Below are positions 4,039-29,172 of a stretch of 64,000 nt of DNA, in pieces. Positions within the stretch are counted from its first letter, which is position 1. The number at the start of each line of letters is the position of its first letter. Position numbers and translations under genes: made by a program. The stretch is from Acidobacteriaceae bacterium KBS 83 (GTDB lineage Bacteria; Acidobacteriota; Terriglobia; Terriglobales; Acidobacteriaceae), in the NCBI GenBank assembly GCA_000381585.1, contig KB906735.1, positions 208,242 to 272,241 of the forward strand, given 5' to 3'. Below the pieces are notes generated by a model. The model saw only the letters and a program-made list of their open reading frames with translations, ran no database searches and was not told the origin of the DNA.

Positions 4039-4047
4039 TGCTATAAT
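4039..4047 (+). promoter_or_regulatory. Extended -10 promoter of the sdh operon
   Basis: TGCTATAAT matches the extended -10 consensus TGnTATAAT exactly. No good -35 is seen, which such promoters can do without. Transcription would begin near 4053-4055, giving a leader of about 50 bases before the ATG at 4103. This also argues against the upstream GTG at 4022 as the first gene's start. Confidence 0.6.
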
Positions 4048-4102
4048 CGCGTCCCAGCGGCGGGAAGGGCCTGTCGGACTATCCCTCTGCCGTGGAGGGA
4101 AG

Positions 4103-8081: not shown

Positions 8082-8804
8082 TTATTGCTTATCAACAGCG
8101 GCCTGAGCAAGAGGCCCGAAAACCATCAGCCGGCCGGGAGAACCGATGGATGATATGCGATCCAGTTCGGTAAAGAACTCCGACACAATGAGGCCGCGAG
8201 GAGCAAACGCATCCGCGTAAAACTCGGGGAAACGATCGTGTGTGTGCTGCCAGCCCTTCTCCGGTTTGCCCGCGTTGAGCGTTGCCTCGCAGAGGATGAT
8301 TAGCGACTTGGGGTTCGCTACCCGCTTGATCTCGCTAAGTGCTTTGCCTACCAGGGAGTTTGGGATATGTTGAAGGACCGTCCATGTGATCACGGTATCG
8401 AAACTGCGATCAGGAAACGGGAGCTCCGTGGCGCTGGCCTCACAAAACGATATCTGAGGATAGAACTGGCTGGCTTCCGATATGGCCCAGGTGTTAATGT
8501 CCACCGCCGTGTGTTGCTCAAAGTGCTCGGCAATGTATGGAGACAAACGACCGAAGCCACATCCAATTTCCAGTGACCGGCCGGGGTTAACACCGCGCTC
8601 GGCTATTAATCCCAGGCAACGGCGCAATTGCATTACCTCATAGAAGTGCCGGCACAGGAGCCTTCCCGGATCTTTGGCCTCAACGAAACCTTCCGGTTTG
8701 AATGTGACGAATTCTCCCTGTCGAACCACGCTCCCGTGAGGGTGAAACAACCGACGAACTGCCCGCGAGAGCAGGGATGGTCGGGCCGCCATCAGTTCCT
8801 CCAT
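8082..8804 (-). CDS. Class I SAM-dependent methyltransferase
   Basis: 240 residues. Motif I SLEIGCGFGRLSPYIAEHF (about residues 97-115), the acidic AVDINTWAI loop and SFDTVITWTVLQHIPN (motif IV region) define a Rossmann-fold methyltransferase of the Methyltransf_11/25 type. It lies downstream of and on the same strand as the P450 gene after a 330-base gap, divergent from the radical SAM operon. The acceptor is unknown. A role in the same pathway as the radical SAM cluster is an inference from proximity. Confidence 0.85.
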   Translation of the reverse strand: MEELMAARPSLLSRAVRRLFHPHGSVVRQGEFVTFKPEGFVEAKDPGRLLCRHFYEVMQLRRCLGLIAERGVNPGRSLEIGCGFGRLSPYIAEHFEQHTAVDINTWAISEASQFYPQISFCEASATELPFPDRSFDTVITWTVLQHIPNSLVGKALSEIKRVANPKSLIILCEATLNAGKPEKGWQHTHDRFPEFYADAFAPRGLIVSEFFTELDRISSIGSPGRLMVFGPLAQAAVDKQ

Positions 8805-9134: not shown

Positions 9135-10253
9135 TTAATCTGTGCTTCTCTCCCCTGTGGTCAGATGGACCCAAAGAGATCTGGGGAAACGAAACCCGGA
9201 TCCGCCCTGCCAATCGACGGGGCGTGAGAGGCTCGCCGAGGCAACCATTTGAACCAGCGGCCGGGTGATCGTGATGGCTGCCATGCGAATCAGGTTGGCA
9301 GCCACACATGCGTGAGGACCCGCCCCCAGGGTGAGATGTCCTGCATTGCGGCGCGCGAGATCGACATGGTTCGGATGGGAGAAGCGCTCGGGGTCACGGT
9401 TTGCCGCGATGATCCTCAGGATGATGCGGTCGCCGCTGCGAATCGAAGCGCCATTGAGATCGATGTCCGCCGTGGCTATCCTGGAGAGGATGCGGACAAG
9501 ACCGGCGTAGCGCAGCAGCTCCTCGATCGCCTGTTCCATCAGCCCCGGCTCTCGATGCAGCAAACTCCATTCTTGGGGAAATTGCAGCAGGGCGAACCAT
9601 GCATTTCCCAAGATGCAGGGCATGGTCTGCGAAAGCGCAACGAACCCGGATTCGCGGAGGGACTCGGGTCCAGAAGGAAAGTAGTTCCGAAGCCCGGCGC
9701 TTAGGGATTCCGCGCTGCGGCGCAGGGCCGAGTCATAAGGTTCGGCGGCGGCGGCCGATATTTCCCGGGCTCGCTCGCAGAGCTGCTCGGCATCGCTTCG
9801 GGAGATGCCTGTCACTATCGCCGCCAATGAGAGACACAGCGGCCGCGCGTATGCATCCATCAGGTCCACCGGTTCTTCGACGGGCAGGCCGTCGGCCAGT
9901 GCGCGAGCCGCAGGAGCGAGTTGATCGCGCCACGCGCGCAACTGTGCGGGAGAGAGCGACTCCATTGCCTCTGCCCGCATCTTTAGCCGGGCACGCTCGC
10001 ATCGGTCATGCTGACCCTCGGCACACTGACCTTCGGCACTCTCGCCGGATGGCTGCGAACCGTGGTCGCTGGCGTGGCTGGCCGGGGAAAGGCTCGAAGC
10101 ATGAAACGCCGCCAGAATATCCGCGTGTCTGCTGAGCACCCACGCTTTGAGAGCACCGTCAAAATAGGGAGTTTCCAGCTCGGGCGCAGAGAGAGAGTCG
10201 AGCTGATCTTCCCTCCATGCGGGTATGGAAGGATCATCTCGTCTGGTAGGCAT
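9135..10253 (-). CDS. Cytochrome P450, atypical
   Basis: 372 residues, slightly short for a bacterial P450. The K-helix ExxR motif is in IEELLRYAG, and the heme-binding loop is HLTLGAGPHACVAANL with Cys316 as the predicted heme thiolate. The loop deviates from FGxGxHxCxG (Leu for Phe, Val for the last Gly), and the I-helix region reads TMPCILGNAWFALLQFP with no AGxxT threonine, so the usual oxygen-activation and proton-delivery residue is missing. It is divergent from the radical SAM operon across a 190-base spacer and may share its regulation. Possible chemistry: hydroxylation, C-C coupling or a non-monooxygenase reaction. The start ATG has only a weak ribosome site. Confidence 0.8.
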   Translation of the reverse strand: MPTRRDDPSIPAWREDQLDSLSAPELETPYFDGALKAWVLSRHADILAAFHASSLSPASHASDHGSQPSGESAEGQCAEGQHDRCERARLKMRAEAMESLSPAQLRAWRDQLAPAARALADGLPVEEPVDLMDAYARPLCLSLAAIVTGISRSDAEQLCERAREISAAAAEPYDSALRRSAESLSAGLRNYFPSGPESLRESGFVALSQTMPCILGNAWFALLQFPQEWSLLHREPGLMEQAIEELLRYAGLVRILSRIATADIDLNGASIRSGDRIILRIIAANRDPERFSHPNHVDLARRNAGHLTLGAGPHACVAANLIRMAAITITRPLVQMVASASLSRPVDWQGGSGFRFPRSLWVHLTTGERSTD

Positions 10254-10300
10254 CGCAATCGCCAGAAAACATCATGTCGAGCATAGCGCAGCGGTCGAGG

Positions 10301-10372
10301 CGAATTGTCAGCAGTGTGTCATCGCTGCTTTTCCGACCGGTGCAGTTGCTTACGAGAGGTGACGACAATTCG
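10301..10372. promoter_or_regulatory. Divergent control region with a spaced 9-bp inverted repeat
   Basis: CGAATTGTC (10301-10309) and GACAATTCG (10364-10372) are exact reverse complements, 54 bases apart, inside the spacer between the P450 gene and the radical SAM operon. They could be two half-sites of one regulator controlling both directions. No confident -35/-10 pair was identified. Confidence 0.35.
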
Positions 10373-10443
10373 ATGACAATATCGGGACGATCGGCTGACA
10401 CGCGCGGACGCTCAAAAGAACACATTTATGAGTAGAGCGAGCG

Positions 10444-11967
10444 ATGCCGAAATCTTTTTCTCCTCCCCGGAAGGTGGTTTTTTTCTTCCCCTCCTTTGCG
10501 AGTTCTGAAGCAACGGCCCCACTCGGTGTTCTGGCAGTCGCGACTCCTCTGATTCGCGCCGGATATCAGGTTGTCCTCGTCGATTCGACGATCACCCCCG
10601 ATTATAGGAAGAGGGTACTCGAAGAGGTTCGCGATGCCGTCTGTCTCGGCATCTCGCTTGTCACGGGGCCAATGATTCGCGAAACGGTCGAGATTGCGCG
10701 AGCGGTGAAGGAGTGGAATCCGGAGTTTCCCATCATTCTGGGCGGGTGGCATCCTTCGCTGCTTCCCGATCAGACTTTGCAGGCTGCATGCGTGGACTAC
10801 ATCGTGCGCGGCCAGGGTGAAGATGCACTGTTGGAACTGGTCAAGCATCTGGAAACGAGGTCCGCGCCGGATCTAATTCCAGGTATCGGCTTCAAGCGGG
10901 GCGGCAAACTCATCCTTACACCGGAGCGGCCGCTGAAGCCTCTGGTAGAGATGCCTCCGAAGGCGTATCACATCGCAGACTTCGATGCCTATGAGCGCGG
11001 TTGCGGCAAACGATGGGCGATGTACACCTCGAGCCTGGCGTGCCCATTCAACTGTGCGTATTGCACGAACGCAGGCGTCTACGGACGCAAATGGAACGCT
11101 CTGCCGCCCGAACAGTTCGTCGAAGAGACCGTCGATCTCACGAGACGCTATCGGCTCGAGATGCTCTGGGTGGTGGACGACAACTTTCTGGTCGACCTCG
11201 ATCGCGCACGCGGCATCGCGGAAGGGCTGGTGCGCGAACGGTCCCAATTCAAGTGGAGCATACAGGCGACGACCAATATGGTGGCCCGGCTTTCGCCGGA
11301 AGATCTCAAGCTGCTGCGCCGAGCAGGGCTGCACCAGGTCTGTCAGGGGGTCGACTCGGGATCGCCGAAGATTCTGCAATTGATGAACAAGACCTTTCAG
11401 GACTTCGATCAGATTTACGAGAGCGCTGCCCGATGCCTGGCAGCCGATATCCGGCCTTCGTTCAACATCATCTTCGCCTTCCCTGGTGAAGGAGCCAAGG
11501 AACGCCGGGAGACGATCAGTTTCATGATGGATGTTTGCCGGCGTTTCCCGGGAGCCGAATTCTGGACAAACATCTTCACGCCCTATCCCGGCTCGCCGAT
11601 CATGGAGCGAGCTAAGGAGATAGGCATCGAAGTTCCCGCGACCCTTGAAGGGTGGGCTGATTTCTTCCCACGCTATACGACACTGCCGTGGCTGCACGGT
11701 GAAGAGCATAAGAGGCTGCAGGTGACACGCGAATATCTTCGCATTGCCTTCGATCGAATCCCCATCGCGGCTGATACTCGCGGCCCCATTACGCGGATCG
11801 CGCAGAAGAGCATCTCCTTGCCCGCGCGCTGGCGCCTCGACCACGATGTGTATAAGTATCCGGTCGAGATATGGCTGAACAACCAGCTAAAAAAACGGAC
11901 GGCTTCCAGCAAACCTGCCGTAGACGCGAAGAGGCTCGCCAACACACCGGCGGAGGCAGCATGCTGA
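10444..11967 (+). CDS. B12-binding-domain radical SAM enzyme (cluster gene 1)
   Basis: 507 residues. The N-terminal Rossmann-like B12-binding domain (about 8-145) shows GISLVTGPMI, ILGGWHPSLLPDQTL and DYIVRGQGED, as in BchE-type class B radical SAM enzymes. The radical SAM barrel carries ACPFNCAYCTN with Cys200, Cys204 and Cys207 for the [4Fe-4S] cluster. A C-terminal tail, RWRLDHDVYKYPVEIWL (about 462-478), recurs in cluster genes 2 and 7. Family chemistry includes methylation at unreactive carbons, ring formation and C-C coupling; the substrate here is unknown. First gene of an operon of overlapping genes; its stop overlaps the next ATG. Confidence 0.9.
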   Translation: MPKSFSPPRKVVFFFPSFASSEATAPLGVLAVATPLIRAGYQVVLVDSTITPDYRKRVLEEVRDAVCLGISLVTGPMIRETVEIARAVKEWNPEFPIILGGWHPSLLPDQTLQAACVDYIVRGQGEDALLELVKHLETRSAPDLIPGIGFKRGGKLILTPERPLKPLVEMPPKAYHIADFDAYERGCGKRWAMYTSSLACPFNCAYCTNAGVYGRKWNALPPEQFVEETVDLTRRYRLEMLWVVDDNFLVDLDRARGIAEGLVRERSQFKWSIQATTNMVARLSPEDLKLLRRAGLHQVCQGVDSGSPKILQLMNKTFQDFDQIYESAARCLAADIRPSFNIIFAFPGEGAKERRETISFMMDVCRRFPGAEFWTNIFTPYPGSPIMERAKEIGIEVPATLEGWADFFPRYTTLPWLHGEEHKRLQVTREYLRIAFDRIPIAADTRGPITRIAQKSISLPARWRLDHDVYKYPVEIWLNNQLKKRTASSKPAVDAKRLANTPAEAAC

Positions 11968-13460
11968 AGCGGGGCAAGGTGGTTTTGTTTTATCCACCGT
12001 ACGACGGGCCTCCGCTCGGCTCGCCGCTCTCGCTGCTCTCGCTCGCCGGCACGCTGCGCGAAGCCAACTTCGAGGTGGTGCTGATCGACGCCGCGATTGA
12101 GCCGCGATATCTGGAACGCATCGTGGAGGAGTGCGAGTCGGCGGTCTGCATCGGTATATCAGTGCTGACTGGTCCCATGATCGGAGGAGCGATCGAAGCG
12201 GCTACTCTGGTCAAGAGTCACGCACCGGAAGTATGCGTGGTGTTTGGCGGGTGGCATCCCACGCTGTGTCCCGAATCGACCCTGCGTGAGCCCTATGTAG
12301 ATGTTGTGGTGCGCGGGCAGGGTGAGATCACGATCGTCGAGCTCGCAAGCGCGCTCGCCAGCAAACAACCCCTGGATCTCATTGCGGGTATCTCCTGGAA
12401 GAAGCAGGGGCGGCTGATACAAAACTTCGAACGGCGGGTTCAACCCGTCGACACCTTCGCTCCGCCCGCGTTCGACATGACCGACTTCGACGCGTATGAG
12501 CGCGTTTCCGGCAAGCGTGAGCTGGCATACGCCACGAGCGTCGGCTGCCCCTACGCCTGCAACTACTGCACCGATATGGTGGTGTACAAACGCCGCTTCA
12601 ACGCTTACACCGCTGAGCATGTCGTCGCGGAGCTGACCGGCCTCGTCACACGCTACCGCATCACGCATGTGGCCCTGCTGGACTCCAACTTTCCCGTCGA
12701 TCTGAAACGGGCAATCGCGATTGCCCGGGGCATACGCGACTCCGCCGTGAAGTTCTCCTGGACCTTCCAGGCATCGACGGACTTCATCTGCCGCATGAAC
12801 CAGGAAGAGGTTCAGCTGCTTGCCGACAGCGGCGTAAGTTACATGGGCTTTGGAACCGAGTCGACTTCACCGCTCGTGCTTAAGTTGATGAACAAGCGCC
12901 ACCAGCGTGTTGATGAGATGTACGAGACCGCGCGCAAGGCCAGCCTCGCCGGCATCCGGATCAACTTCAATCTCATCCTCGGCTACCCCGGAGAAACGGA
13001 GGCTGACCGGCTTCTCACCTTCAGGACCATGAGCGACATCGGGCGCCAGTTCAACAATGTCCGTTTCTCGCCGAATATCTTCACGCCGTATCCCGGCATT
13101 CCTATCTGGCCTCAGCTTCGCGAGCTTGGAGTCGTCGAGCCGCAGACCTTGGAGGACTGGATGTCGATGCCACTGGGAGCGAACCTGCTGCCCTGGCTCA
13201 AAGGCCGCGAGCTTGCCCGGCTCGAGCGGATGCTCGCTTATTTTCTATTGCTGAACCAGACACGTCGTTCGCGCAAGACTTCGTTCGCGCAAAAGCTCAC
13301 CAGTTTTCTTGTGCAGACACCCGTCCGCTGGCGCCTGGACTCCAGCTTCTTCTCCTTTCCGTGGGAGATCTGGCTTACGCAGCTCTCGGAGCAGATCGTC
13401 AAGCGCCGCTCTCTTGTCACCGGCCAGGCATTGCCTGCAGAGCCAGCCAATGTCTGCTGA
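11961..13460 (+). CDS. B12-binding-domain radical SAM enzyme (cluster gene 2)
   Basis: 499 residues from the ATG at 11961, which has a GGAGG site 4 bases upstream and overlaps the stop of gene 1; a longer frame upstream is only overlap. B12 domain with GISVLTGPMIGGA, FGGWHPTLCPESTL and VVVRGQGE; radical SAM cysteines in GCPYACNYCTD at 196, 200 and 203. It aligns with gene 1 throughout, including MNKRHQRVDEMYE versus MNKTFQDFDQIYE and the tail RWRLDSSFFSFPWEIWL, so the two are paralogues. They may form a heterodimer or act on successive positions of one substrate; both ideas are inference. Confidence 0.9.
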   Translation: MLKRGKVVLFYPPYDGPPLGSPLSLLSLAGTLREANFEVVLIDAAIEPRYLERIVEECESAVCIGISVLTGPMIGGAIEAATLVKSHAPEVCVVFGGWHPTLCPESTLREPYVDVVVRGQGEITIVELASALASKQPLDLIAGISWKKQGRLIQNFERRVQPVDTFAPPAFDMTDFDAYERVSGKRELAYATSVGCPYACNYCTDMVVYKRRFNAYTAEHVVAELTGLVTRYRITHVALLDSNFPVDLKRAIAIARGIRDSAVKFSWTFQASTDFICRMNQEEVQLLADSGVSYMGFGTESTSPLVLKLMNKRHQRVDEMYETARKASLAGIRINFNLILGYPGETEADRLLTFRTMSDIGRQFNNVRFSPNIFTPYPGIPIWPQLRELGVVEPQTLEDWMSMPLGANLLPWLKGRELARLERMLAYFLLLNQTRRSRKTSFAQKLTSFLVQTPVRWRLDSSFFSFPWEIWLTQLSEQIVKRRSLVTGQALPAEPANVC

Positions 13461-13473
13461 ATTATTTTCGCCC

Positions 13474-13487
13474 GGAGGTGACCCATC
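13474..13487 (+). promoter_or_regulatory. Ribosome site GGAGG and probable ATC start codon
   Basis: GGAGG (13474-13478), six bases (TGACCC), then ATC (13485-13487) in frame with cluster gene 3. An in-frame TGA at 13479 excludes any start further upstream. Translation from ATC gives ADVLLTHSYHLARDAKQF, aligning position for position with the ATG-started PDLLLTHGYFLYEDPKEM of gene 4. Confidence 0.6.
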
Positions 13488-14984
13488 GCAGATGTACTGC
13501 TGACGCACTCCTATCACCTTGCCCGCGACGCAAAACAATTCAGGAAGATGCAGCCGTATCCGCCGCTCGGTACGCTGTATGCGGCGACGGCGCTGCGCTC
13601 CGCTGGTATTTCGGTTGCTGTATTCGACACGATGTTTGCTGAGCCGGCGCCAGGCTTTAGTGCGGCGCTTGAGGAGCATCGCCCGAAGATCGTTGTCATC
13701 CATGAGGACGACTTCAACTTCGTAACCAAGATGTGCCTGATGCACATGCGTGAACTGGCAAACGAGCTTGCCACGATCGCTCGCAGCGCGGGAATCACGG
13801 TAATCGCGCATGGATCGGATGCGACCGATCATCCCCGCGAATATCTGGACAACGGTGTTGACTTCATTCTGAACGGTGAAGTGGAACAGAGCCTTGTCGA
13901 TCTCTGTAGCGCTCTTCTGCAGTCGCAGCGGTTGCCAGCGGTTCCCGGCCTGGTGAGCTACTCAGCCACAGATGGCAGCCTGGAGACTTTGTTGCCTGCG
14001 CCGACTAATCCTTCCTGGGCCACTCTACCACGAGCGGCGAGAGATCTCATCGACCTTGAGCCATACAGGCGCGCATGGATCGAAGGGCACGGCTACTTCT
14101 CCACCAATGTCGTGTCCAGCCGAGGCTGTCCATATCAGTGCAACTGGTGCGCGAAGCCCATCTCCGGCAATCGATTTCAGCTACGAGCGCCGGAAGAGGT
14201 TGCGGCGGAGATCCGTGAGATCAAGACGTGTTTCGGCGTGGAGCACATCTGGTTTGGCGATGACGTGTTTGCATTGGATCGCCGCTGGGTGGAAGCTTTT
14301 GCGCGCGCCGTCGAATCGCATGGTGAAGTGGTTCCCTTCAAGATTCAGTCACGTGCCGATCTGATGAGTGACGCGACAGTCTCAGCTTTGAAGCGAGCGG
14401 GCTGTGTGGAGATATGGATGGGCGTTGAATCCGGTTCACAGAAGATTCTCGATGCGATGAAGAAGGGTTTGAACCTTTCCGCCGTGTATGCCGCACGAGA
14501 GAGGCTCGCAAGCGCTGGTATACGGGCGTGCTACTTCCTTCAGTTCGGCTACTCGGGGGAGGGATGGGCCGAGATCTGCGAGACGGTGCAACTGGTGCGC
14601 CGCACCCGACCCGACGACATCGGCATATCACTCTCCTATCCTCTGCCTGGCACGCGCTTCTTCGATCGCGTTCAGGCGCAGTTGGGAAGAAAACGCAACT
14701 GGATCGACAGCGACGATCTCTGTGCGATTCATATCGCTAGCTACAACGACATCTTTTACCACGCGCTCCGCGATGCGTTGCATGCCGAGGTGACAGCCTG
14801 GAATGCGCCTTCGGGCACATCCGATCCGTCTAGCTATGAATCCCTATGGAGCCGCGTTTACCAGATGGAGCCCGCATGCAGAAACAGGAACATACTGTCT
14901 CTGCCTGCCGAATCCTCGCATAACGACCTACACGGCGCGTTCCTGCCATTGGAAAACCTCATGGTGGGGGCCAGGAGATCCTGA
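13485..14984 (+). CDS. B12-binding-domain radical SAM enzyme (cluster gene 3), probable ATC start
   Basis: 499 residues if started at ATC 13485; the first in-frame ATG (13548) would remove about 20 residues that match the N-terminus of gene 4. The B12 domain starts with ADVLLTHSYH and includes PYPPLGTLYAATAL and GVDFILNGEVEQSL. Radical SAM cysteines lie in GCPYQCNWCAK at 215, 219 and 222. ESGSQKILDAMKKGL and LQFGYSGEGW are conserved with gene 4, so these two form a second paralogous pair distinct from genes 1 and 2 and lacking their C-terminal tail. The stop TGA overlaps the next ATG. Substrate unknown. Confidence 0.88.
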   Translation: MADVLLTHSYHLARDAKQFRKMQPYPPLGTLYAATALRSAGISVAVFDTMFAEPAPGFSAALEEHRPKIVVIHEDDFNFVTKMCLMHMRELANELATIARSAGITVIAHGSDATDHPREYLDNGVDFILNGEVEQSLVDLCSALLQSQRLPAVPGLVSYSATDGSLETLLPAPTNPSWATLPRAARDLIDLEPYRRAWIEGHGYFSTNVVSSRGCPYQCNWCAKPISGNRFQLRAPEEVAAEIREIKTCFGVEHIWFGDDVFALDRRWVEAFARAVESHGEVVPFKIQSRADLMSDATVSALKRAGCVEIWMGVESGSQKILDAMKKGLNLSAVYAARERLASAGIRACYFLQFGYSGEGWAEICETVQLVRRTRPDDIGISLSYPLPGTRFFDRVQAQLGRKRNWIDSDDLCAIHIASYNDIFYHALRDALHAEVTAWNAPSGTSDPSSYESLWSRVYQMEPACRNRNILSLPAESSHNDLHGAFLPLENLMVGARRS

Positions 14985-16393
14985 TGCCAGATCTGCTCCT
15001 TACGCACGGTTACTTCCTCTACGAGGACCCCAAGGAAATGCAGATCATGAAGCCATATGCACCTCTGGGCATCCTGTATCTCTGTTCGCACCTGCGGCGG
15101 CAGGGCTTCGATGTTGAGGTCTTCGACACAACCTTTTCCAATCGCGAGTCGCTCTTCCGCCACCTGCAGACAGAGAAGCCATCCGTACTTGGCATCTACG
15201 CCAATCTAATGACTCGCAGCAACGTGGTGGAGATCATTCGCGTGGCTCGTGAAGCGGGCTGGCACATTATCGTCGGAGGGCCGGAGCCCGGCGCATACGC
15301 GCAGGAATTTCTAGAGTCGGGCGCGGACTTCGTCGTCTTCGGCGAAGGCGAGGCCACAATGCAGGAGTTATTGACGGCTTTGCACGATAGCACAGACTCA
15401 TCCGGCAATATTTGGAAGGCGAAGGTCGCCGGAACAGCATATCTCGACGACGAAGGAACATTTCATCAGAATCCTCCGCGGGCCCAGATCGCTGACCTCG
15501 ATGCGCAACCCTGGCCTGCCCGCGAAGCAATCGACCTGCATCGCTACGTCGATACCTGGCGAAGCCATCATCAGCAAGGGTCGGTGAACTTTATCACCGC
15601 GCGCGGATGTCCCTACAAGTGCCGCTGGTGCAGCCATCAAGTCTACGGCCAGACGCACAGGCGCCGTAGCCCAGTCAAGGTGGTGGATGAACTGGAGTGG
15701 CTACTGACCGAGTACACGCCGGATATCGCATGGGTGTCTGACGATGTTTTCACGATCAATCATGAATGGATACGCAAGTATGCCGCGGAGATGCGTCGCC
15801 GCAATCTTCATATTCCCTTCGAATGCATCTCCCGCGCGGACCGGCTCAACGAAGAGATGCTCGACCTGCTCGCGGAGCTGGGTTGCTTTCGTATCTGGAT
15901 CGGCTCTGAGAGCGGTTCGCAGCGGCTGCTCGATGCGATGGATCGCGGGGTGAAGGTGGAACAGGTGCAGAGGGCCGTCGAGATGAGCCGCGTGCGCAAG
16001 ATTCAAAGCGGGATGTTTCTGATGTGGGGTTATGAAGGAGAGGAGATGGAAGACATTGAGGCCACGATCCGCCATGTCAGGACGACCAAACCTGACATCT
16101 TCTTCACCACAGTCTCCTATCCGATCAAAGGCACTCCATACTACCAGCAGGTTCAGAACAAGCTGGTGCAGCTGAAGCCCTGGGCGCAGAGCTCCGATCG
16201 TGAGATCAAGATCGCAGGTCGGCACTCACGGGCTTACTACGCGCATGCAGATAAGCTGCTTCGCGATGAAGTTCAATTTGCGAAGGTGAGCGAAGACCCG
16301 GCAGCGGACTCAGAGCTTCTGCAGGATCTCAGAATAAACATTCGAGCCTCGCGGGAAGGACTCCTGGCCACGCAGAGTGAGGTGGAGGCATGA
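14984..16393 (+). CDS. B12-binding-domain radical SAM enzyme (cluster gene 4)
   Basis: 469 residues, ATG overlapping the previous stop by one base (TGATG). The B12 domain shows PDLLLTHGYF, KPYAPLGILYLCSHL, HIIVGGPEPGAYAQEF and GADFVVFGEGEATM. The radical SAM cluster motif GCPYKCRWCSH has cysteines at 209, 213 and 216; SESGSQRLLDAMDRGVK follows. Paralogue of gene 3. It overlaps the following methyltransferase by 4 bases (ATGA). Likely a methylase, cyclase or C-C bond former on the cluster's unknown substrate. Confidence 0.9.
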   Translation: MPDLLLTHGYFLYEDPKEMQIMKPYAPLGILYLCSHLRRQGFDVEVFDTTFSNRESLFRHLQTEKPSVLGIYANLMTRSNVVEIIRVAREAGWHIIVGGPEPGAYAQEFLESGADFVVFGEGEATMQELLTALHDSTDSSGNIWKAKVAGTAYLDDEGTFHQNPPRAQIADLDAQPWPAREAIDLHRYVDTWRSHHQQGSVNFITARGCPYKCRWCSHQVYGQTHRRRSPVKVVDELEWLLTEYTPDIAWVSDDVFTINHEWIRKYAAEMRRRNLHIPFECISRADRLNEEMLDLLAELGCFRIWIGSESGSQRLLDAMDRGVKVEQVQRAVEMSRVRKIQSGMFLMWGYEGEEMEDIEATIRHVRTTKPDIFFTTVSYPIKGTPYYQQVQNKLVQLKPWAQSSDREIKIAGRHSRAYYAHADKLLRDEVQFAKVSEDPAADSELLQDLRINIRASREGLLATQSEVEA

Positions 16394-17238
16394 CGGTCGA
16401 CGGAACGATCTCACTTGTCAGTTATACGGAATCAGCTTATGCGGGACCGGCCGCCGGTGCAGCCTTCGACCGAATCGCACATGACTACGATCGAAGATTT
16501 ACCGATTCGTTGATTGGCCGAACGCAACGCGATGTCGTCTGGAAGGTGCTGACGAGAACCTTTCAAAAGAGCGACAAGGTTCTCGAACTCAACTGCGGTA
16601 CCGGCGAAGATGCCATCTATCTGGCCGGCAATGGCATCTCTGTAGTCGGTCTTGATGCTTCGCGGCAGATGATCGCCAGGGCCAAGCAACGCCTTCAGCA
16701 GAAGTCACCGCGAATTCCCCCAGTCTTCCGCGAGTTGCCCACAGAGCGCATCGGCGAGCTTCGTGCGGAGAAACAATTCGACGGTGTATTTTCGAACTTT
16801 TCCGGATTGAACTGTATTGCCGATCTTGCTGCCGTTGCCTGCTCAGTTGCGCGGCTCGTGAGGCCAGATGGGCGCCTGGTTCTGTGCTTTTCTACACGCT
16901 TCTGCCTAATCGAAATCCTGTACTACCTCGTTCTCGGGCGATGGCGGACGGCGTTGCGGCGCTGCAAGGGGCACACCGACGTGACGATCGACGGGGTGTC
17001 GTTCATGGTCTACTATCCGACCCTTCGCAAGATTCGCCAATCGTTTGCCCCGGATTTTCGGCTCTACTCTTGCACTGGAATCGGGGTTGCTGTGCCGCCT
17101 TCCTATCTTGAGGCATGGGCTCGCCAGCATCCACGCCTCTTTCGCTTACTCCGCCGCCTGGAAGAACGATTGGCCGCGCTGCCCATTCTTCGCAGCACGG
17201 GTGATCATGTCCTCCTCTGCTTCGAGAAGGTGTCCTAA
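16390..17238 (+). CDS. Class I SAM-dependent methyltransferase (cluster gene 5)
   Basis: 282 residues. AFDRIAHDYDRRFTDS at the N-terminus and VLELNCGTGEDAIYLAGNG (motif I, around residue 61), followed by VVGLDASRQMIARAKQRL, define a Methyltransf_25-type O-, N- or C-methyltransferase. The region after motif IV contains the hydrophobic LIEILYYLVLGRW, which may contact a lipid-like acceptor or the membrane. It overlaps its neighbours on both sides (ATGA upstream, TAATG downstream). The acceptor is presumably the product of the surrounding radical SAM enzymes. Confidence 0.87.
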   Translation: MTVDGTISLVSYTESAYAGPAAGAAFDRIAHDYDRRFTDSLIGRTQRDVVWKVLTRTFQKSDKVLELNCGTGEDAIYLAGNGISVVGLDASRQMIARAKQRLQQKSPRIPPVFRELPTERIGELRAEKQFDGVFSNFSGLNCIADLAAVACSVARLVRPDGRLVLCFSTRFCLIEILYYLVLGRWRTALRRCKGHTDVTIDGVSFMVYYPTLRKIRQSFAPDFRLYSCTGIGVAVPPSYLEAWARQHPRLFRLLRRLEERLAALPILRSTGDHVLLCFEKVS

Positions 17239-18242
17239 TGACTGCGGCGCACGTAGAGGTTCTCGATGGAGCCGAAGGGGTATGCCGGAATTGGGAGGTG
17301 ACACTCCTGTGCTGGCAATGCGGTGCCCCCCTGGCAGAGCTGACCCCCGATACGCGAACTGGATCCGGAATACGTACATGCCAACGTTGCAAAATGACAA
17401 CGCGATACAGAAACGGCATCTGGCGGGCGCTTTCTCCCGACCGCGTCGATCATTTCCGGAAGTTTATTGCCGAATATGAGTTGATACGTGCTGCCGAGGG
17501 GCGTGGTAGTGCACAGCCGGAATACTATCTAAACCTGCCGTTCAAAGATATGTCCGGGCGGAATAGTGACCAGTGGGCGATACGAGCACGCACCTTCCGT
17601 GCAATGCAGCGATCCATTGTGGCACCCCTTGCCCTGCGCGCTGGGTGTGCTCTCCGCATTCTGGACCTGGGTGCGGGCAACGGCTGGTTGAGTTATCGGC
17701 TAGCGCTCCAGGGACATTTCCCCATTGCCGTCGATCTATTGACCAATGATCGCGACGGTCTCGGGGCGGCCGTCCACTATAACGCGCACATCCATCCCCT
17801 GTTCCCTCGCGTCCAGGCGGAACTCGATCGGCTTCCATTCGTCTCATCAGTCTTCGACCTCGTTATCTTCAACGCGTCGTTTCACTACTCTGTGAACTAC
17901 GAGCGGACCTTGGCGGAAGCAGTGCGGTGCACATGCCCAGGCGGCAGCGTTGTGATCGCAGATACGCCGTGGTACGCAAAGGAAGAGAGCGGCAGAAGAA
18001 TGGTCGAGGAGAAGCACAAACGCTTCTTTGCAACCTACGGATTCGCGTCTGACTCGATCGCAAGCCTCGAATACCTCACGCCGACTCGTCTACAGCGCCT
18101 AGGAAACGCGTTCAATCTGGGATGGAGATCTATAAGCCCGTTCTATGGGATTCGCTGGGCTCTCCGTCCGCTCCGTGCCAAGCTCGCTGGCAATCGTCCT
18201 CCATCGCAATTCCGCATCTATGAAGCACGTGTGGGAGCATGA
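17238..18242 (+). CDS. Methyltransferase with N-terminal zinc ribbon (cluster gene 6)
   Basis: 334 residues. Two CxxC knuckles (CWQCG, Cys25/28; CQRC, Cys48/51) look like a zinc ribbon of the kind fused to some methyltransferases such as the RlmA and Trm112-dependent groups. A central class I methyltransferase domain follows, with IRILDLGAGNGWLSYRL-type motif I (read here as LRILDLGAGNGWLSYRL) near residue 140 and VIADTPWYAKEESG further on. RNGIWRALSPDRV links the two parts. Translationally coupled to both neighbours. The ribbon may position a carrier, partner protein or substrate; that is inference. Confidence 0.85.
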   Translation: MTAAHVEVLDGAEGVCRNWEVTLLCWQCGAPLAELTPDTRTGSGIRTCQRCKMTTRYRNGIWRALSPDRVDHFRKFIAEYELIRAAEGRGSAQPEYYLNLPFKDMSGRNSDQWAIRARTFRAMQRSIVAPLALRAGCALRILDLGAGNGWLSYRLALQGHFPIAVDLLTNDRDGLGAAVHYNAHIHPLFPRVQAELDRLPFVSSVFDLVIFNASFHYSVNYERTLAEAVRCTCPGGSVVIADTPWYAKEESGRRMVEEKHKRFFATYGFASDSIASLEYLTPTRLQRLGNAFNLGWRSISPFYGIRWALRPLRAKLAGNRPPSQFRIYEARVGA

Positions 18243-19708
18243 TCATCCTCTATCATCCGCGCGCCACGCGGCCACGCAATCGCAGACTGCCTCTCGCTGT
18301 CCTGGCCCTCGCCGCGGTGCTGGAAGGAAAAGAGGAATACGAAATCGTCGACGGGAACCTCGAGGAGAATCCGACCGCTCGCATTCTTGAGCTCATCGAT
18401 CGGCATAAGGTCGAATTGCTGGGTGTCTCAGTAATGCCGGGTCCGCAGATGGTGGCGGCGATGGAGACCTCTCGTGAGGTTCGTCGTCTTCATCCGAAGG
18501 TCCCCATCTGCTGGGGCGGCTATTTCGCTTCTATCTATCCTGATGCTGCGCTCAACGCTCGCTACGTGGATTTTGTCGCTCGCGGTCAGGGCGAAGATAC
18601 GCTCATCGAGCTTCTAGATGCCCTTCGCGGCAAGCGCTCGCTCGACTCGGTAAAGAGCCTCTCCTACAAGGACATGTTTGGCCTACGTCGCGACAACGGA
18701 GAGCGACCGATGAAAGGGCCGGATGAGTTTCCATGGTCACCGTTTCAGCGTCTTCCGGTCGAGAAATATCTACGTCCTTCCTTCTTCGGGAAGCGCACGG
18801 CCGTTCATCATGCGAGCATCGGCTGTCCGTTCAACTGCAGCTTCTGCGGTGTTCACGCAGCGTATGGCAACAAGGAGAAGATGGAGTCGCCCAAGCGAAC
18901 GGTCGCCATTCTGACTCATCTGGTTGAACGCTACGGCGCAGACTCGGTTCAGTTCTACGATATGAACTTTTTCCTGCGCGAGGATCACGCGCGGGAGCTC
19001 TGCGATCGCATGGCGCATTTAAATCTTCGCTGGTGGTGCGAAGCGCGTGTCGACATCATGTCCCGGTATTCGGATGAAACATTCGCCGCAATCAAACGAG
19101 CTGGATGCGCGATGATCTTCTTCGGAGCGGAATCCGGTTCGGACTGGGTGCTCGAGGAGATGCAAAAAGGGATCACCACACAACAGACGCTGGAAATCGC
19201 ACGGAGAACCCATCAGTTCGGCATCATTCCCGAGTTCTCCTTTGTCATTGGCAATCCCAACGATCCTGACCGCGACACGCGCGAGACGATGCGATTCATC
19301 CGCCAGATCAAACGTATCAACCCGGATTCGGAGATCATCATCCAGCACTACACTCCAACACCGCAGCCGCACGATGCCGGCGGTGAGATGTACGGCAAGA
19401 TCGATGTTCCGTTTCCGGATTCACCGGCCGGATGGGCGGCAAAGGAGTGGATGAACTTTACTCTGCGAATCGATACCAACGCTCCATGGCTCAAGCGCCG
19501 GACCAAGAAGCTCATCGACAACTTCGAGATCGTCGTCGGCTCACGCTGGCCCACGGTTCAGGATATTCGTGCGCCGCGTTGGAGCCGTCGGCTTCTGCAA
19601 ATTCTCAGCGCGTGGCGCTATGCCTTGCACATCTATAGCTTTCCTTTCGAGCTTCATCTCGCCAACCAGTTCATCGCTCTGCGCAAGCCGAAGCGGGAGA
19701 GCCTGTGA
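18239..19708 (+). CDS. B12-binding-domain radical SAM enzyme (cluster gene 7)
   Basis: 489 residues, ATGA overlap with gene 6. The B12 domain is shorter at the N-terminus (IILYHPRATRPRNRRLPLA) with GVSVMPGPQMVAAM, WGGYFASIYPDAAL and DFVARGQGED. The radical SAM motif GCPFNCSFCGV has cysteines at 196, 200 and 203, and GAESGSDWVLEEMQKGI follows. The tail AWRYALHIYSFPFELHL (about 458-474) corresponds to that of genes 1 and 2, so this is a third, more distant member of that group. Its stop overlaps the GTG start of the fusion gene. Confidence 0.9.
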   Translation: MIILYHPRATRPRNRRLPLAVLALAAVLEGKEEYEIVDGNLEENPTARILELIDRHKVELLGVSVMPGPQMVAAMETSREVRRLHPKVPICWGGYFASIYPDAALNARYVDFVARGQGEDTLIELLDALRGKRSLDSVKSLSYKDMFGLRRDNGERPMKGPDEFPWSPFQRLPVEKYLRPSFFGKRTAVHHASIGCPFNCSFCGVHAAYGNKEKMESPKRTVAILTHLVERYGADSVQFYDMNFFLREDHARELCDRMAHLNLRWWCEARVDIMSRYSDETFAAIKRAGCAMIFFGAESGSDWVLEEMQKGITTQQTLEIARRTHQFGIIPEFSFVIGNPNDPDRDTRETMRFIRQIKRINPDSEIIIQHYTPTPQPHDAGGEMYGKIDVPFPDSPAGWAAKEWMNFTLRIDTNAPWLKRRTKKLIDNFEIVVGSRWPTVQDIRAPRWSRRLLQILSAWRYALHIYSFPFELHLANQFIALRKPKRESL

Positions 19709-21669
19709 CGACGCGCGCCAAAACTTGGGCCGTTTCGCAGGCGCAACCCGACGCCAGCGTTTTCAATCGTTGGGCGCAAGTCTACGATGCACAACGCAAT
19801 CCCTTGCTGCTGCTCGAGGAGCGCAAAGCTGTGCCGCTTCTGCCGTCCATTCGCGGCAGCAATGTTTTGGATGTCGGATGCGGCACCGGCCGCTGGCTTA
19901 CGCACCTCGAAGCCCTTCACCCAGCTTCGCTCATCGGCATCGATTCCTCCAGAGTCATGCTGAAGCACGCTCGCAAAAAGGTCCTTCCCGCAACGAAGCT
20001 CGAACATGGCCACAGTTCGGCGCTGCCGGGCGAAGATGTGCGCTACACCCTCGTCATCGCTTCGTTCCTGCTGAGCTACGTCCAGGATCTGCCGGCATTT
20101 GCTCTCGAGTGTGCTCGCGTCGTTCGACCGGGTGGGTCGCTGATTCTCTCCGACATGCACCCCGTGACAGCGGCAGAACGAGGCTGGAAACGAAGCTTTC
20201 ACGTCGATGGCACAACGGTTGATATAGCCGCTCATTCCCGGTCTTTGCCGGAGATCATTGCTGTCTTCGAGAAAAGCGGATTCGAGGTTGGAATTCTCAT
20301 TGAGCCTCCATTTGATGAGCCTGAGCGGCAGGTATTCGAGGATGCGGGGAAGCTCGGAGAGTACGAAACACTAGCTGGAGTGCCAGCAATCTATATCTTG
20401 AAGTTGCAAAAGCGACGACCGGGCACGCCGATGCAGTTTCCTGCCCGGAACAAGGCACTTCAACTTACGAATGCGCGCATCGGCGCGGGCCCCACTACCT
20501 GGAGAGACGGCGTCATCTCGATAGACAATGGGCGCATCGCCGGCATCCATGACGATTCTGACGTGACAGCGCAGGCACTCAATCTGCAGGATTATGTGCT
20601 TCTGCCAGGCTTGATCAATTCGCACGAGCATCTTGAGTTCGGATTATTTCCAAAGCTTGGGCGCCCCGCAGACGCTCCCTCTTATCGAAGCTCGATAGAG
20701 TGGGCGAAGGAGATCCATCGGCTTCACTCCGGCATCATCGCGCAATACCGACAAATTCCGAAAAAGACTCACCTGTGGTGGGGAGCGATACGCAATCTTC
20801 TGTGCGGCGTCACAACGGTTTGCCATCATAATCCGCTCCACCGGGAGCTGACCCGTCCGGATTTTCCAGTGCGCGTTCTCTCGCGCTTTGGGTGGTCCCA
20901 CTCACTTGCCTTTGATTCGGATCTGAAGGGCAACTTTGATCGTACGCCGAAGGAATATCCGTTCATCCTTCACGCGGCCGAGGGCATGGATGAAGAGAGC
21001 AGGAACGAAGTTTCCTGGCTTGACCAGATGCACGTGCTGGATGAACGCACCGTGCTGGTGCATGGGCTGGCATGCTCTGCAAGCGAGATATCGCTGATCA
21101 ATCGACGTGGCGCTTCGCTGGTCGTCTGCCCCACATCGAACCGCTTCCTTTTTGGAAGAACTTTCCCGCGCAAACTACTGACTGTGGTCGAACGGCTCGC
21201 ACTTGGCAGTGACTCGCCGATCACGGCTGCGGGCGATCTGCTTGATGAGATCAACTACCTTAACGCGCAAGCCGGTCTCAGCCCGCACGTGATCTACCGC
21301 ATGGTCACAACCAATCCCTCGGAGATGTTCCATCTCAATGATGACCAGGGCCGCATCGCGGAGTCCGGTGTTGCCGATCTGATCGCAGTGCGCGGCAACT
21401 ACGATACTCCCGCGCGCGCCGTCTCTGAGCTTACGGTGGGTGACGTGGAGTTCGTTTTACTCGCGGGTCGAGCTCAGATCGCATCGCCCTCTATCTACGC
21501 ACGCTTGCCATACGATCTTCGTTCCGGCATGGAGCTCATCGAGGTAGGAGGCTATCAACGCTGGATTCGCGCGCCCCTGCGAGAACTGTTCGCGTCTGCG
21601 GCGAGCGTTCTGGGCCAGCAAAAACTGCTGCTCGCCGGGAGGGAGGTGCGTTATCTCGGCACTCTATGA
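19705..21669 (+). CDS. Methyltransferase-amidohydrolase fusion (cluster gene 8)
   Basis: 654 residues, GTG start overlapping the previous stop (GTGA). Residues 1-225 are a class I methyltransferase: VLDVGCGTGRWLTHLE (motif I near residue 53), IGIDSSRVML and RVVRPGGSLILSDMHP. Residues about 245-600 are an amidohydrolase of the guanine-deaminase/chlorohydrolase type: LLPGLINSHEHLEFG (metal ligands His307, His309), FILHAAEG (His423, Glu426), LVHGLACS (His453) and LGSDSPIT (Asp503). No frame break separates the parts, so it is a real two-domain protein or a recent gene fusion. It may deaminate or hydrolyse a cluster intermediate and methylate it. The ending overlaps the next gene by 17 bases if that gene starts at ATC. 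Confidence 0.88.
   Translation: MTTRAKTWAVSQAQPDASVFNRWAQVYDAQRNPLLLLEERKAVPLLPSIRGSNVLDVGCGTGRWLTHLEALHPASLIGIDSSRVMLKHARKKVLPATKLEHGHSSALPGEDVRYTLVIASFLLSYVQDLPAFALECARVVRPGGSLILSDMHPVTAAERGWKRSFHVDGTTVDIAAHSRSLPEIIAVFEKSGFEVGILIEPPFDEPERQVFEDAGKLGEYETLAGVPAIYILKLQKRRPGTPMQFPARNKALQLTNARIGAGPTTWRDGVISIDNGRIAGIHDDSDVTAQALNLQDYVLLPGLINSHEHLEFGLFPKLGRPADAPSYRSSIEWAKEIHRLHSGIIAQYRQIPKKTHLWWGAIRNLLCGVTTVCHHNPLHRELTRPDFPVRVLSRFGWSHSLAFDSDLKGNFDRTPKEYPFILHAAEGMDEESRNEVSWLDQMHVLDERTVLVHGLACSASEISLINRRGASLVVCPTSNRFLFGRTFPRKLLTVVERLALGSDSPITAAGDLLDEINYLNAQAGLSPHVIYRMVTTNPSEMFHLNDDQGRIAESGVADLIAVRGNYDTPARAVSELTVGDVEFVLLAGRAQIASPSIYARLPYDLRSGMELIEVGGYQRWIRAPLRELFASAASVLGQQKLLLAGREVRYLGTL
21642..21655 (+). 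promoter_or_regulatory. Ribosome site GGAGG and probable ATC start codon
   Basis: GGAGG (21642-21646), six bases (TGCGTT), then ATC (21653-21655) in frame with the radical SAM/SPASM gene. Spacing and codon are identical to the arrangement at 13474-13487. The first GTG or ATG in frame (21767/21770) lies inside the CxxxCxxC cluster motif and cannot be the true start. Confidence 0.55.
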
Positions 21670-22681
21670 AATTCAACCTGCGACGCCGGCTCATCTTAGT
21701 AGATCGCGGATTACCACGCTTCCCATTCTGCTGCTCAGCATCCACAGCCAATGCAATTGCCGCTGTGTGATGTGCGACATCTGGAAGCGGAAGGACGGAC
21801 GCGAGTTCCATGCCGCCGATCTCGAACGGCATCGCGAATCGATACGAACGCTCGGAGTGAAGCACGTTGTGCTGACTGGCGGCGAGCCTCTGCTCAATCG
21901 TGAGCTGGGCGCGATCTGCGAGTTCTTTCACGATCTAGGCCTTCGCGTCACACTCCTCACCACCGGGCTCCTCCTGCAGAAGAAGGCGGATGTCGTTGCC
22001 CGTGGCTTCGACGACATCATTATCTCTATCGATGGGCCGCCAGAGGTACATGATCGAATTCGTCGCGTCTCCGGCGCTTTTCGGACCCTTCAAAAGGGAG
22101 TGATGGAGGTTCGCTCCCATCGGTCCCAGATACTGATATCCTGCAGAACCACAGTGCAGAAACTGAACCATACACATCTTCGCGCTACCGTCTCCGCCGC
22201 TAGATCTCTTGGACTCGACAGTATCTCCTTCCTCGCGGCGGACATCTCGTCAGCAGCTTTCAACCGGGAGGAACGCTGGGCACCCGAGCGGCAGAAGGAA
22301 ATTGCACTTAGCCGCGCCGAGGTGAGCGAACTGGAAGAAGAAATCGAACTTCTGATCCAGATGCACCAGGAAGACATTGATCGGGGCTTCATTGTTGAAA
22401 GCAACGCGAAGCTACGGAGGATTGGAACGCGCTTTCGAGAACACATCGACGGCACACCGCCAAAGGCTCCCATCTGCAATGCCCCATGGGTTTCGGCCGT
22501 AATCGAAGTGGATGGAAGTGTTCGCCCCTGCTTCTTTCACCCTTCCGTCAGCAATGCACATCAACTCACATTGGAGGAGGCAATCAATAGCGAGACTGCC
22601 CTCTCCTTCAGAAGCCGCCTTCAGGTTGCCAGCAACCCCGTCTGCCAGCGTTGCGTTTGCTCCCTGAATTACGCGCGATGA
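21653..22681 (+). CDS. Radical SAM/SPASM-type enzyme (cluster gene 9), probable ATC start
   Basis: 342 residues if started at ATC 21653. The [4Fe-4S] motif is QCNCRCVMCDIW with Cys34, Cys38 and Cys41, so the usual ATG/GTG candidates downstream would produce a protein lacking its cluster. GGEPLLN and IISIDGPPEVHDRIR are standard radical SAM motifs. The C-terminus has SPASM-like cysteines: ICNAPWVSAVIEVDG, RPCFFHP and CQRCVCSLNYAR. It resembles MoaA/PqqE-type proteins, which modify peptides or small molecules. No B12 domain. ATT or CTG codons between 21671 and 21731 are weaker start alternatives without a ribosome site. Confidence 0.83.
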   Translation: MSALYEIQPATPAHLSRSRITTLPILLLSIHSQCNCRCVMCDIWKRKDGREFHAADLERHRESIRTLGVKHVVLTGGEPLLNRELGAICEFFHDLGLRVTLLTTGLLLQKKADVVARGFDDIIISIDGPPEVHDRIRRVSGAFRTLQKGVMEVRSHRSQILISCRTTVQKLNHTHLRATVSAARSLGLDSISFLAADISSAAFNREERWAPERQKEIALSRAEVSELEEEIELLIQMHQEDIDRGFIVESNAKLRRIGTRFREHIDGTPPKAPICNAPWVSAVIEVDGSVRPCFFHPSVSNAHQLTLEEAINSETALSFRSRLQVASNPVCQRCVCSLNYAR

Positions 22682-22824
22682 GTGGAGTCGCCTGCGGGAG
22701 AGCTAAGTTCATCGAGGAATATCCACATAACCCCGATGGTCTAGGACTGATGTTTGTCGGCTTTGCTGGTGAACTCCGTCACGCCGGCACCACCACAAGT
22801 ATGGAGAAGCAGCTCATCCACTGA
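22678..22824 (+). CDS. Possible 48-residue peptide at the end of the radical SAM operon
   Basis: An ATG at 22678 overlaps the stop of the SPASM gene by ATGA, the same coupling used elsewhere in this operon, and opens a 48-codon frame ending at 22824. The peptide begins MSGVACGRAKFIEEYPH and ends TTTSMEKQLIH, with one Cys and a Gly-rich middle (GLGLMFVGFAGEL). It may be a precursor peptide, a truncated last gene or chance. No family is recognised and codon bias is not decisive. Confidence 0.3.
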   Translation: MSGVACGRAKFIEEYPHNPDGLGLMFVGFAGELRHAGTTTSMEKQLIH

Positions 22825-22853: not shown

Positions 22854-24290
22854 CTATTCCATCTCGAAGGCAACGTATTGATTTACGCCGCGCCGCTCGA
22901 CCACGAGCGCAACCACGTCTCCAGGTTTAAAGCCAGCGATATCCTGTCGCAGATGCTCCGCATCGACCACTGGCTTGCCGTTGACCGACGTAATCACGTC
23001 TCCAGCGCGGAGATCGGCCAGAGTGGCCGGTTCTCCGCTGAGCACTCCAGCCACGATAGCGCCGGATTGGGCACGAGTCCCCATAGCATCCGCCAAGTCG
23101 TGCTTGAGATCCACCACAAAGATGCCGAGAGATCCGACGAGATCCGTCCTAGGGTTGATCAGGTCAGAAAGGTTCTCAATCGTCTGGGGCGCTGGAACGG
23201 GCATGACGGATGCTGAGACATCTTTGCCATCGCGCAGTACCTTCATTTCCATCCACCGCTCGCGCGGATGCAGGTAGAGAAATGCCGTATATTTGGGCAA
23301 CGAGTCAATCGGCACCCTATCGATAGAGAGAACCAGGTCCTTAGGTTGAAGCCCTGCAGCCGCGGCCGGCCCGTTTGCTTCCACGTCAGATAGCATCACA
23401 CCCCAGTCCCGAGGGAGCTTAAGTGCGGCAGCCAGCGCAGGCGTAACGGTCTGCGCGTGGGCTCCGATGGTAGAGGCGGGGATCGTGCCAAACTCCTTGA
23501 GCTGTATGTATGCGTACTGGACAATCGGCTCCGGGATCGCAAAGCCAAGTCCCTCACTTCCGCCGCCGGAACTATAGATAAAGGTGTTGATCCCGACGAG
23601 GCGTCCGTTGCGATCCACAAGAGGGCCGCCACTGTTGCCTGGATTGATCGGTGCGTCAGTTTGCACATATACCATGGGACGGTCAGCTTCCGGCTGCCGG
23701 CCAAGCGCACTGACAATCCCTTTCGTTACGGTATGGGCGAGCCCCTCCGGCGACCCGATCGCGATCACAGTCTGTCCTAACCGCACTTCGTAATTCTCCG
23801 GAAGCGGAATGAAGGGCAGGTTCTTCTCGTCGATCTTGATGACTGCGAGATCAGCGTAGCGATTGGTACCGATGAGCGTCGCATTGTAGACATGTTCCTC
23901 GTGGGATAGAACGGTGCGGCCCACCGCCAATTCAACAGTCGCCGGCGCAAGCGTCACGCGGATGCGCAGGGCCCCGGAAACAACGTGATTGTTGGTGATT
24001 ATGTATCCATTCGGATCAACAATCACACCCGAACCGAGCGCACGCTGGCGCTGAAAGTTCTGCGAATCGTCACCTTGGCCATGTTCGGGCACGCTGTAAC
24101 TGGTGACGTCGATTTGAACTACAGACCGCATCGCGCGCTCCGCAATCTCATCGAGCGATTGATCGTATTCCTGCAAAATAGAGGACCCTACGCTATGTGG
24201 CGTCGGGGACTCGCGCTTCTGCTGTCCATCAACTGATAGCGGAAGCAGGGCTACGACGATCGCAAGAGCGCACTGCATTCGATATTTCAT
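22854..24290 (-). CDS. HtrA/DegQ-type serine protease with PDZ domains
   Basis: 478 residues from the ATG at 24290, chosen because it gives a signal peptide (MKYRMQCALAIVVALLPLS). The trypsin-like domain has the triad His in ITNNHVVSG, Asp in YADLAVIKID and Ser in NPGNSGGPLVDRNG. Two PDZ domains follow (ANGPAAAAGLQPKDLVLSID and SGEPATLADLRAGDVITSVN). It degrades or refolds damaged envelope proteins. Last gene of the minus-strand efflux group, 29 bases after the RND gene, suggesting an envelope-stress role together with the pump. Confidence 0.9.
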   Translation of the reverse strand: MKYRMQCALAIVVALLPLSVDGQQKRESPTPHSVGSSILQEYDQSLDEIAERAMRSVVQIDVTSYSVPEHGQGDDSQNFQRQRALGSGVIVDPNGYIITNNHVVSGALRIRVTLAPATVELAVGRTVLSHEEHVYNATLIGTNRYADLAVIKIDEKNLPFIPLPENYEVRLGQTVIAIGSPEGLAHTVTKGIVSALGRQPEADRPMVYVQTDAPINPGNSGGPLVDRNGRLVGINTFIYSSGGGSEGLGFAIPEPIVQYAYIQLKEFGTIPASTIGAHAQTVTPALAAALKLPRDWGVMLSDVEANGPAAAAGLQPKDLVLSIDRVPIDSLPKYTAFLYLHPRERWMEMKVLRDGKDVSASVMPVPAPQTIENLSDLINPRTDLVGSLGIFVVDLKHDLADAMGTRAQSGAIVAGVLSGEPATLADLRAGDVITSVNGKPVVDAEHLRQDIAGFKPGDVVALVVERRGVNQYVAFEME

Positions 24291-24319
24291 CTTCTCGTCC
24301 CTCACCAAGACCGAAATGC

Positions 24320-28000: not shown

Positions 28001-28040
28001 GCTCGCACTTAGGCTGACCTGTTGTACGGAGTGTGTTGTG

Positions 28041-29168: not shown

Positions 29169-29172
29169 GTCG

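Follow-up and report, generated by a model that had tools for sequence, protein, structure and literature searches.

A stretch of 64,000 nucleotides from Acidobacteriaceae bacterium KBS 83 (contig KB906735.1; hereafter the window) carries nine co-directional and nearly gapless genes at positions 10444-22681 of the + strand. Together these almost certainly form a genuine biosynthetic gene cluster that is conserved and modular and has not been described before; it encodes five B12-binding radical S-adenosylmethionine (SAM) proteins (rS1-rS5), three SAM methyltransferase domains (MT1, MT2 and MT3), an amidohydrolase (AH) and a SPASM radical SAM enzyme. There is about an even chance that the product is a GTP-derived, aminopyrimidine-nucleoside-like specialised metabolite, which would be deaminated, modified by radical chemistry, methylated and glycosylated. 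The odds for this scaffold are no better than that because the window locus itself lacks the GTP cyclohydrolase II (GCHII) that accompanies part of the cluster in related genomes.

Conservation, modularity and a linked cyclohydrolase

When an alignment of rS5 was scanned against the genomes of 84,980 species, 41 loci were returned, all from Acidobacteriota. Reading these loci with tblastn gave the order rS1-rS2-rS3-rS4-MT1-MT2-rS5-MT3(:AH)-SPASM. The same genes occur in the same order in Edaphobacter, Granulicella, Terriglobus, Silvibacterium and uncultured Acidobacteriota, as they do in G016, a genome from another genus of the same family. Named species with the cluster are Edaphobacter modestus, E. 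aggregans, Granulicella mallensis, Terriglobus albidus and Silvibacterium bohemicum. Other families of the phylum hold relatives of around 45% identity in the same kind of cluster, again in this order (e.g. L157 and L159). The rS5 profile matches 63 of 399 Terriglobia genomes, from 29 of 136 genera. Overlaps are seen at 177 of the 242 core gene junctions across loci, 121 of them by exactly 4 nt. Because of these overlaps, and because dozens of contigs repeat this gene order, the arrangement is more than chance. The original prediction had proposed a single co-translated unit, to be refuted if orthologues proved scattered and unlinked in related genomes, and the recurring gene order bears it out. 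No described acidobacterial B12 radical SAM cluster was found in the openly accessible literature.

Losses and separations of genes divide the cluster into module A (rS3, MT2 and the amidohydrolase), module B (rS4, MT1, rS5 and MT3) and module C (rS1/rS2, SPASM and sometimes a P450). rS4 is present in every sufficiently complete locus that has rS5, and the two are kept with MT1 and MT3 wherever contigs are complete enough. rS2 has been lost in about ten loci (L035-L038, L042, L047, L053, L055, L057) and MT2 in several, while rS1 and SPASM are lost jointly in L049, L056, L058, L060 and L062. rS3 and AH are jointly missing from L061 and L027, and the genome that holds L027 (G320) carries rS3-MT2-AH-SPASM-GT87 at a second locus, L140.

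The rS3 profile matches 72 of the 399 genomes, and in nine well-assembled genomes rS3 is present while rS5 is absent; GCHII is found in eight of these nine. The stand-alone operon usually reads NTP_transf_5 - MT1 - GCHII - rS3 - MT2 - AH - GT1 - GT87 (L118, L125, L133-L139), next to genes for an HprK-like kinase and a PhyH protein. Here MT2 accompanies rS3 and AH, and an MT1 of 38% identity stands before GCHII. As exceptions, no GT87 was called in L138 or L139, and no GCHII was found in L139.

The GCHII of module A passes the Pfam and NCBIfam family cut-offs (PF00925, 192 bits; PRK00393, 226 against 148). The cluster copies keep the C-x10-C-x-C and D.R residues, with the signature intact in 12 of 13, and form a single clade separate from 15 housekeeping RibA proteins of the same family (support 100/100). 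Among the 399 genomes, all 13 top-scoring copies lie in rS3-positive genomes, 0.17-4.0 kb from rS3, a linkage with a chance of 8e-11 if the genomes were independent, which they are not. In a panel of 36 genomes (18 rS3-positive and 18 rS3-negative) the association of GCHII with rS3 was not significant when taken alone (p 0.10), and it was the search of 399 genomes that settled it. Four copies, in clusters that are otherwise full (L035, L038, L131, L132), adjoin GT87 and are divergent from rS1. In genome G118, the cluster copy of GCHII (L125:9837-10436) has an in-frame TAG, and may be a pseudogene or reflect a sequence error. A partial extra GCHII match in the genome of the window (contig C10) was set aside as a broken fragment in an unrelated region.

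Natural products known to start from GCHII include the toxoflavin-type heterocycles and pseudoiodinine (PMC9911603). The pathways to toxoflavin, fervenulin, reumycin and pseudoiodinine resemble module A in that one operon combines a dedicated paralogue of GCHII with a deaminase and with methyltransferases. The dedicated GCHII that characterises 7-azapteridine/toxoflavin pathways is present in stand-alone module A and in four full clusters, but absent from the window locus. In contrast to those pathways, an ATZ/TRZ amidohydrolase, radical SAM enzymes and glycosyltransferases are present here. The present pathway is not filed with these because a RibD-type deaminase was not found in the scanned proteins of the L118 operon or in the window genes.

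Gene content and enzyme families

The domains listed in the original prediction were all recovered by Pfam above cut-off: five proteins have Radical_SAM with B12-binding, three have a SAM methyltransferase domain (the third, MT3, followed in the same chain by Amidohydro_1), and the last has Radical_SAM with SPASM. CxxxCxxC is found in all six radical SAM proteins, and the locus holds five of the 13 B12-binding-domain matches of the whole genome. The nine overlapping or near-touching genes that had been described are likewise all present on the + strand, and the package ends at 22681 rather than 22824. rS1 (10444-11967; 507 aa, CPFNCAYC; B12-binding 67 bits, Radical_SAM 76 bits) stands first, a place that is also occupied by its orthologues, which are 70-95% identical. 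It is followed by its paralogue rS2 (11961-13460; approximately 499 aa), then by rS3 (13485-14984), which has a degenerate B12-like domain, and the rS3 paralogue rS4 (14984-16393). The pairs rS1/rS2 and rS3/rS4 are apparent by eye, and ORF (open reading frame) clustering joins the members of each. Next come two class I SAM methyltransferases, MT1 (16390-17238) and MT2 (17238-18242), the latter with an N-terminal CxxC..CxxC ribbon, and the B12-binding radical SAM protein rS5 (18239-19708). The MT3:AH fusion (19705-21669) consists of a methyltransferase (approximately 19705-20412) and an ATZ/TRZ-type amidohydrolase (approximately 20431-21669), and the SPASM enzyme (21653-22681; CNCRCVMC, SPASM 37 bits) closes the cluster. 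In most species a C-terminal cysteine is strongly conserved in rS1 (..EAAC, ending at 11967) and rS2 (..NVC or ..NAC, ending at 13460).

None of the radical SAM members reaches an NCBIfam equivalog cut-off, and none belongs to a characterised family; the models for BchE, HpnJ, HpnR and TIGR04072 were all missed, with the best score for BchE (168 of 481 bits) and lower scores for the others. rS1, rS2, rS4 and rS5 combine B12-binding scores of 62-76 bits with the CxxxCxxC core of cobalamin-dependent radical SAM enzymes. This architecture is shared with the cobalamin radical SAM methylases TokK, CysS, TsrM and MgmA, but matches to these reach just 25-65 bits. For rS3, the fifth of the B12-binding proteins that had been predicted, the domain score is marginal, at 35 bits where the cut-off is 32. 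The rS3 family has HGSDATDH in place of the GGxHP B12 signature, and rS3 may not bind cobalamin.

The top match of rS3 in a profile search of the PDB is AprD4 (100.8 bits). A predicted structure of rS3 (predicted local distance difference test, pLDDT, 79) also aligns best with AprD4 (Z 26.0, 3.4 Å, 418 residues), followed by OxsB (Z 24.1) and MgmA (Z 23.0). The radical SAM diol dehydratase AprD4 and the nucleotide ring-contraction enzyme OxsB thus have a fold in common with rS3 and are its closest solved structures, but they are 23% and 17% identical to it, respectively, their gene neighbourhoods differ, and rS3 scores 105 bits on the NCBIfam AprD4 equivalog model, which has a cut-off of 500. 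By sequence, the solved chain closest to the SPASM enzyme is the cytosylglucuronate decarboxylase BlsE (E 4e-14), but the enzyme scores 53 on the NCBIfam BlsE model against a cut-off of 400, and the core half alone matches. Sugars or nucleosides are thus the substrates of several of the nearest structural or sequence neighbours (AprD4, OxsB, BlsE). Having a fold in common does not prove what an enzyme acts on.

In AH, the metal and catalytic residues H65xH67, H181xxE184, H211 and D261 (AH numbering) are invariant in 25 sequences, and provide the HxH, H(xxE), H and D residues of ATZ/TRZ amidohydrolases. MT3 and AH are separate genes in L047-L062. The AlphaFold2 model of AH (pLDDT 94) aligns best with deaminases of methylthioadenosine (MTA), S-adenosylhomocysteine (SAH) and adenosine (Z 35, 359 residues, 2.9 Å), and then with isocytosine, aminofutalosine, triazine and guanine deaminases (Z 29-33). 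All of the closest folds act on an amino-heterocycle or triazine. The scores shown for AH on the NCBIfam guanine, MTA/SAH and aminofutalosine deaminase models are all far below the equivalog cut-offs, and Foldseek/VIA rankings among its relatives, some of them tied, played no part in the choice of substrate. Searched against plasmids, MT3:AH matched generic deaminases and methyltransferases, and nothing else.

A divergent P450-like protein (9135-10253, - strand), identified by Pfam/NCBIfam and synteny, belongs to the cluster because its orthologue lies directly downstream of SPASM in L061, L099 and L111. It has the heme Cys, but its substrate half is short and no clear A/GGxDT can be seen by eye in the I helix; the closest P450 subfamily model is the 'P450-derived glycosyltransferase activator' (120 of 343 bits). 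The 190-bp divergent intergenic region between it and rS1 (10254-10443) is likely to contain promoters. The upstream divergent methyltransferase MT0 (8082-8804), which had been suggested as a further member alongside the P450, was dropped as it has no match at other loci.

Unusual start codons may be used by two of the genes. The best start of rS2, set by homologues, is 11961, overlapping the stop of rS1, although its longest ORF runs from 11871. For rS3 and SPASM there is no ATG, GTG or TTG at the position homologous to the start in relatives, and both appear from the sequence to begin with AUC (13485 and 21653), each behind GGAGG. The context of the rS3 start is GGAGGTGACCCATC, with ATC in the window and ATG in L025. 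The SPASM start, GGAGGTGCGTT-ATC, is common to the window, L025, L059 and L026 (with one upstream base changed in L026), so that the apparent AUC is conserved in four species; in L029, L028 and L057 it is ATG at the same place.

The surrounding genes are ordinary downstream (22854-30531), with an HtrA-like protease and an RND efflux triplet (ACR_tran, HlyD, OEP). Further upstream, 2346-7441 holds a cytochrome b561 and molybdopterin oxidoreductase pair and a flavoprotein/iron-sulfur pair that is succinate dehydrogenase-like.

Companion genes elsewhere in the genome

The original prediction noted that no glycosyltransferase was present. This is correct for the window but misleading, as GT87 tracks the cluster: in the 36-genome panel it is found in 16/18 rS3-positive and 0/18 rS3-negative genomes, and in several genomes it lies beside or inside the cluster. 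HprK and NTP_transf_5 were found in 18/18 rS3-positive and 4/18 rS3-negative genomes. In the genome of the window all three are on other contigs (HprK at C9:236344, NTP_transf_5 at C9:247577 and GT87 at C2:735510). HprK and NTP_transf_5 also sit in exopolysaccharide (EPS) loci without rS3 (L120, L126, L127), which weakens their specificity for this pathway and makes GT87 the more specific companion.

The HprK-like kinase and NTP_transf_5 of module-A loci have a precedent, though not a proof, for their roles in lasso peptides, where a related pair of kinase and nucleotidyltransferase places a phosphate on an alcohol and hexoses on that phosphate, as in pseudomycoidin (PMC8498205). In contrast to that system, no lasso precursor or cyclase was seen here, and the pair is accompanied by GT87. 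In L118 (17567-19678) the GT87 glycosyltransferase domain is fused to a C-terminal PD40 beta-propeller, a fusion conserved with the cluster. Small proteins beside the HprK-like kinase (L030:748-1227, L049:2026-2484) resemble its N-terminal domain alone; a 'PqqD-like' label for them was dropped, as they have no Pfam or NCBIfam match, and they give no evidence of a RiPP recognition element (RRE). On contig C9 of the window's genome (L115, L116), Wza, Wzx and WecG of an EPS locus adjoin HprK, together with a cupredoxin, a small cytochrome-like protein, a porin-like protein and a sensor/regulator pair; in other species, too, comparable sets of genes stand next to the cluster.

Proposed pathway and rival explanations

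Gene content, synteny, modularity, linkage and fold families are observed; from them we infer each of the following reactions, their order and a type of product. GTP would be opened to 2,5-diamino-6-ribosylamino-pyrimidinone phosphate by the dedicated GCHII where this is present, and presumably by housekeeping RibA in the genome of the window. AH may then take an amino group off the aminopyrimidine heterocycle, or off a product of it. rS3 could act on the sugar part in the manner of AprD4 or OxsB, while rS4, rS5, rS1 and rS2 would install C-methyl groups or rearrange carbon using cobalamin. MT1-3 would carry out O/N-methylation, and SPASM and the P450 the finishing steps. Lastly, glycosylation (GT87, GT1), phosphorylation (HprK) and transfer of sugar onto the phosphate (NTP_transf_5) could follow, with genes that are often elsewhere in the genome. 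The origin of the scaffold in primary metabolism, one of the sources first proposed, is favoured by the GCHII built into the stand-alone module.

Several points weigh against a GTP-derived product. The main weakness is the lack of GCHII at the window locus; among the 399 genomes, most of those with a full cluster, the window's included, have no dedicated copy that could be seen. Flavin supply can also account for additional copies of ribA. No RibD-type deaminase domain was found by Pfam in the scanned proteins of the L118 operon or in the window genes. The deaminases of MTA, SAH and adenosine that head the structural matches of AH would fit recycling of radical SAM by-products, and fold neighbours, at identities of 15-23%, do not fix substrates. 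The co-occurrence p-values also ignore shared ancestry.

The leading rival, to which we would give roughly one chance in four, is that the cluster decorates an exopolysaccharide or lipid-linked glycan, with unusual branched or methylated sugars put on a surface polymer by GT87, GT1 and Wza/Wzx. Many loci do adjoin Wza, Wzz, Wzx, WecG, O-antigen-ligase-like, GT4, GT87 and sugar-O-methyltransferase-like proteins, and the co-occurrence of HprK, NTP_transf_5 and GT87 and the likeness of rS3 to the sugar-acting AprD4 point the same way. However, the EPS loci that carry HprK and NTP_transf_5 without rS3 indicate that part of this link comes from location, nucleotide-sugar enzymes were not seen among the cluster genes, and glycan decoration leaves GCHII and the amino-heterocycle deaminase fold unexplained.

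It is less probable, though still worth considering, that GCHII and AH are helpers, the first boosting flavin supply and the second deaminating SAH, MTA or 5'-deoxyadenosine from the SAM enzymes, with a scaffold of some other kind. The best structural group of AH and its fusion to a methyltransferase in the window are consistent with such a role. Yet AH accompanies a single radical SAM enzyme, rS3, in the stand-alone module, and is missing from loci that keep several other radical SAM genes (L027, L061), and RibA alone yields no flavin.

Acidobacteriaceae produce hopanoids, branched glycerol dialkyl glycerol tetraethers and ether lipids, and BchE-, HpnJ- and ladderane-type models score best with the radical SAM proteins, but methylation of such lipids is very unlikely as these scores are weak (88-168 bits against 360-577), the cluster has no lipid genes and a patchy distribution, and GCHII and the deaminase are unexplained. 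A ribosomal peptide (RiPP) as substrate is just as improbable: SPASM and B12 radical SAM enzymes often mature peptides, and HprK and nucleotidyltransferase pairs modify lasso peptides (PMC8498205), but ORF clustering, which took ORFs of at least 90 aa, gave no conserved small ORF beside the core. The hidden peptide of the original prediction also lost ground in that no precursor, RRE, peptidase, cyclase or other RiPP core enzyme was noticed at the loci, and the small neighbours of HprK resemble its N-terminal domain standing alone.

Acidobacteriota rank with the most abundant bacteria of soils, and only a few specialised metabolites are known from them. The cluster brings together a high density of cobalamin-radical enzymes that is conserved across the phylum and occurs in named species open to genetic testing. 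Natural loci with one, two or three modules are a ready series for assigning functions, and the GCHII entry point would supply a concrete first intermediate. If GTP is the starting point, this would be, to our knowledge, the first cobalamin-radical pathway begun by GTP cyclohydrolase II. The chance is somewhat short of even that the cluster makes a nucleoside-like natural product of a new class, or else an acidobacterial cofactor, from a riboflavin-pathway intermediate by way of up to six radical SAM enzymes, and species that differ in their modules would then differ in its decoration.

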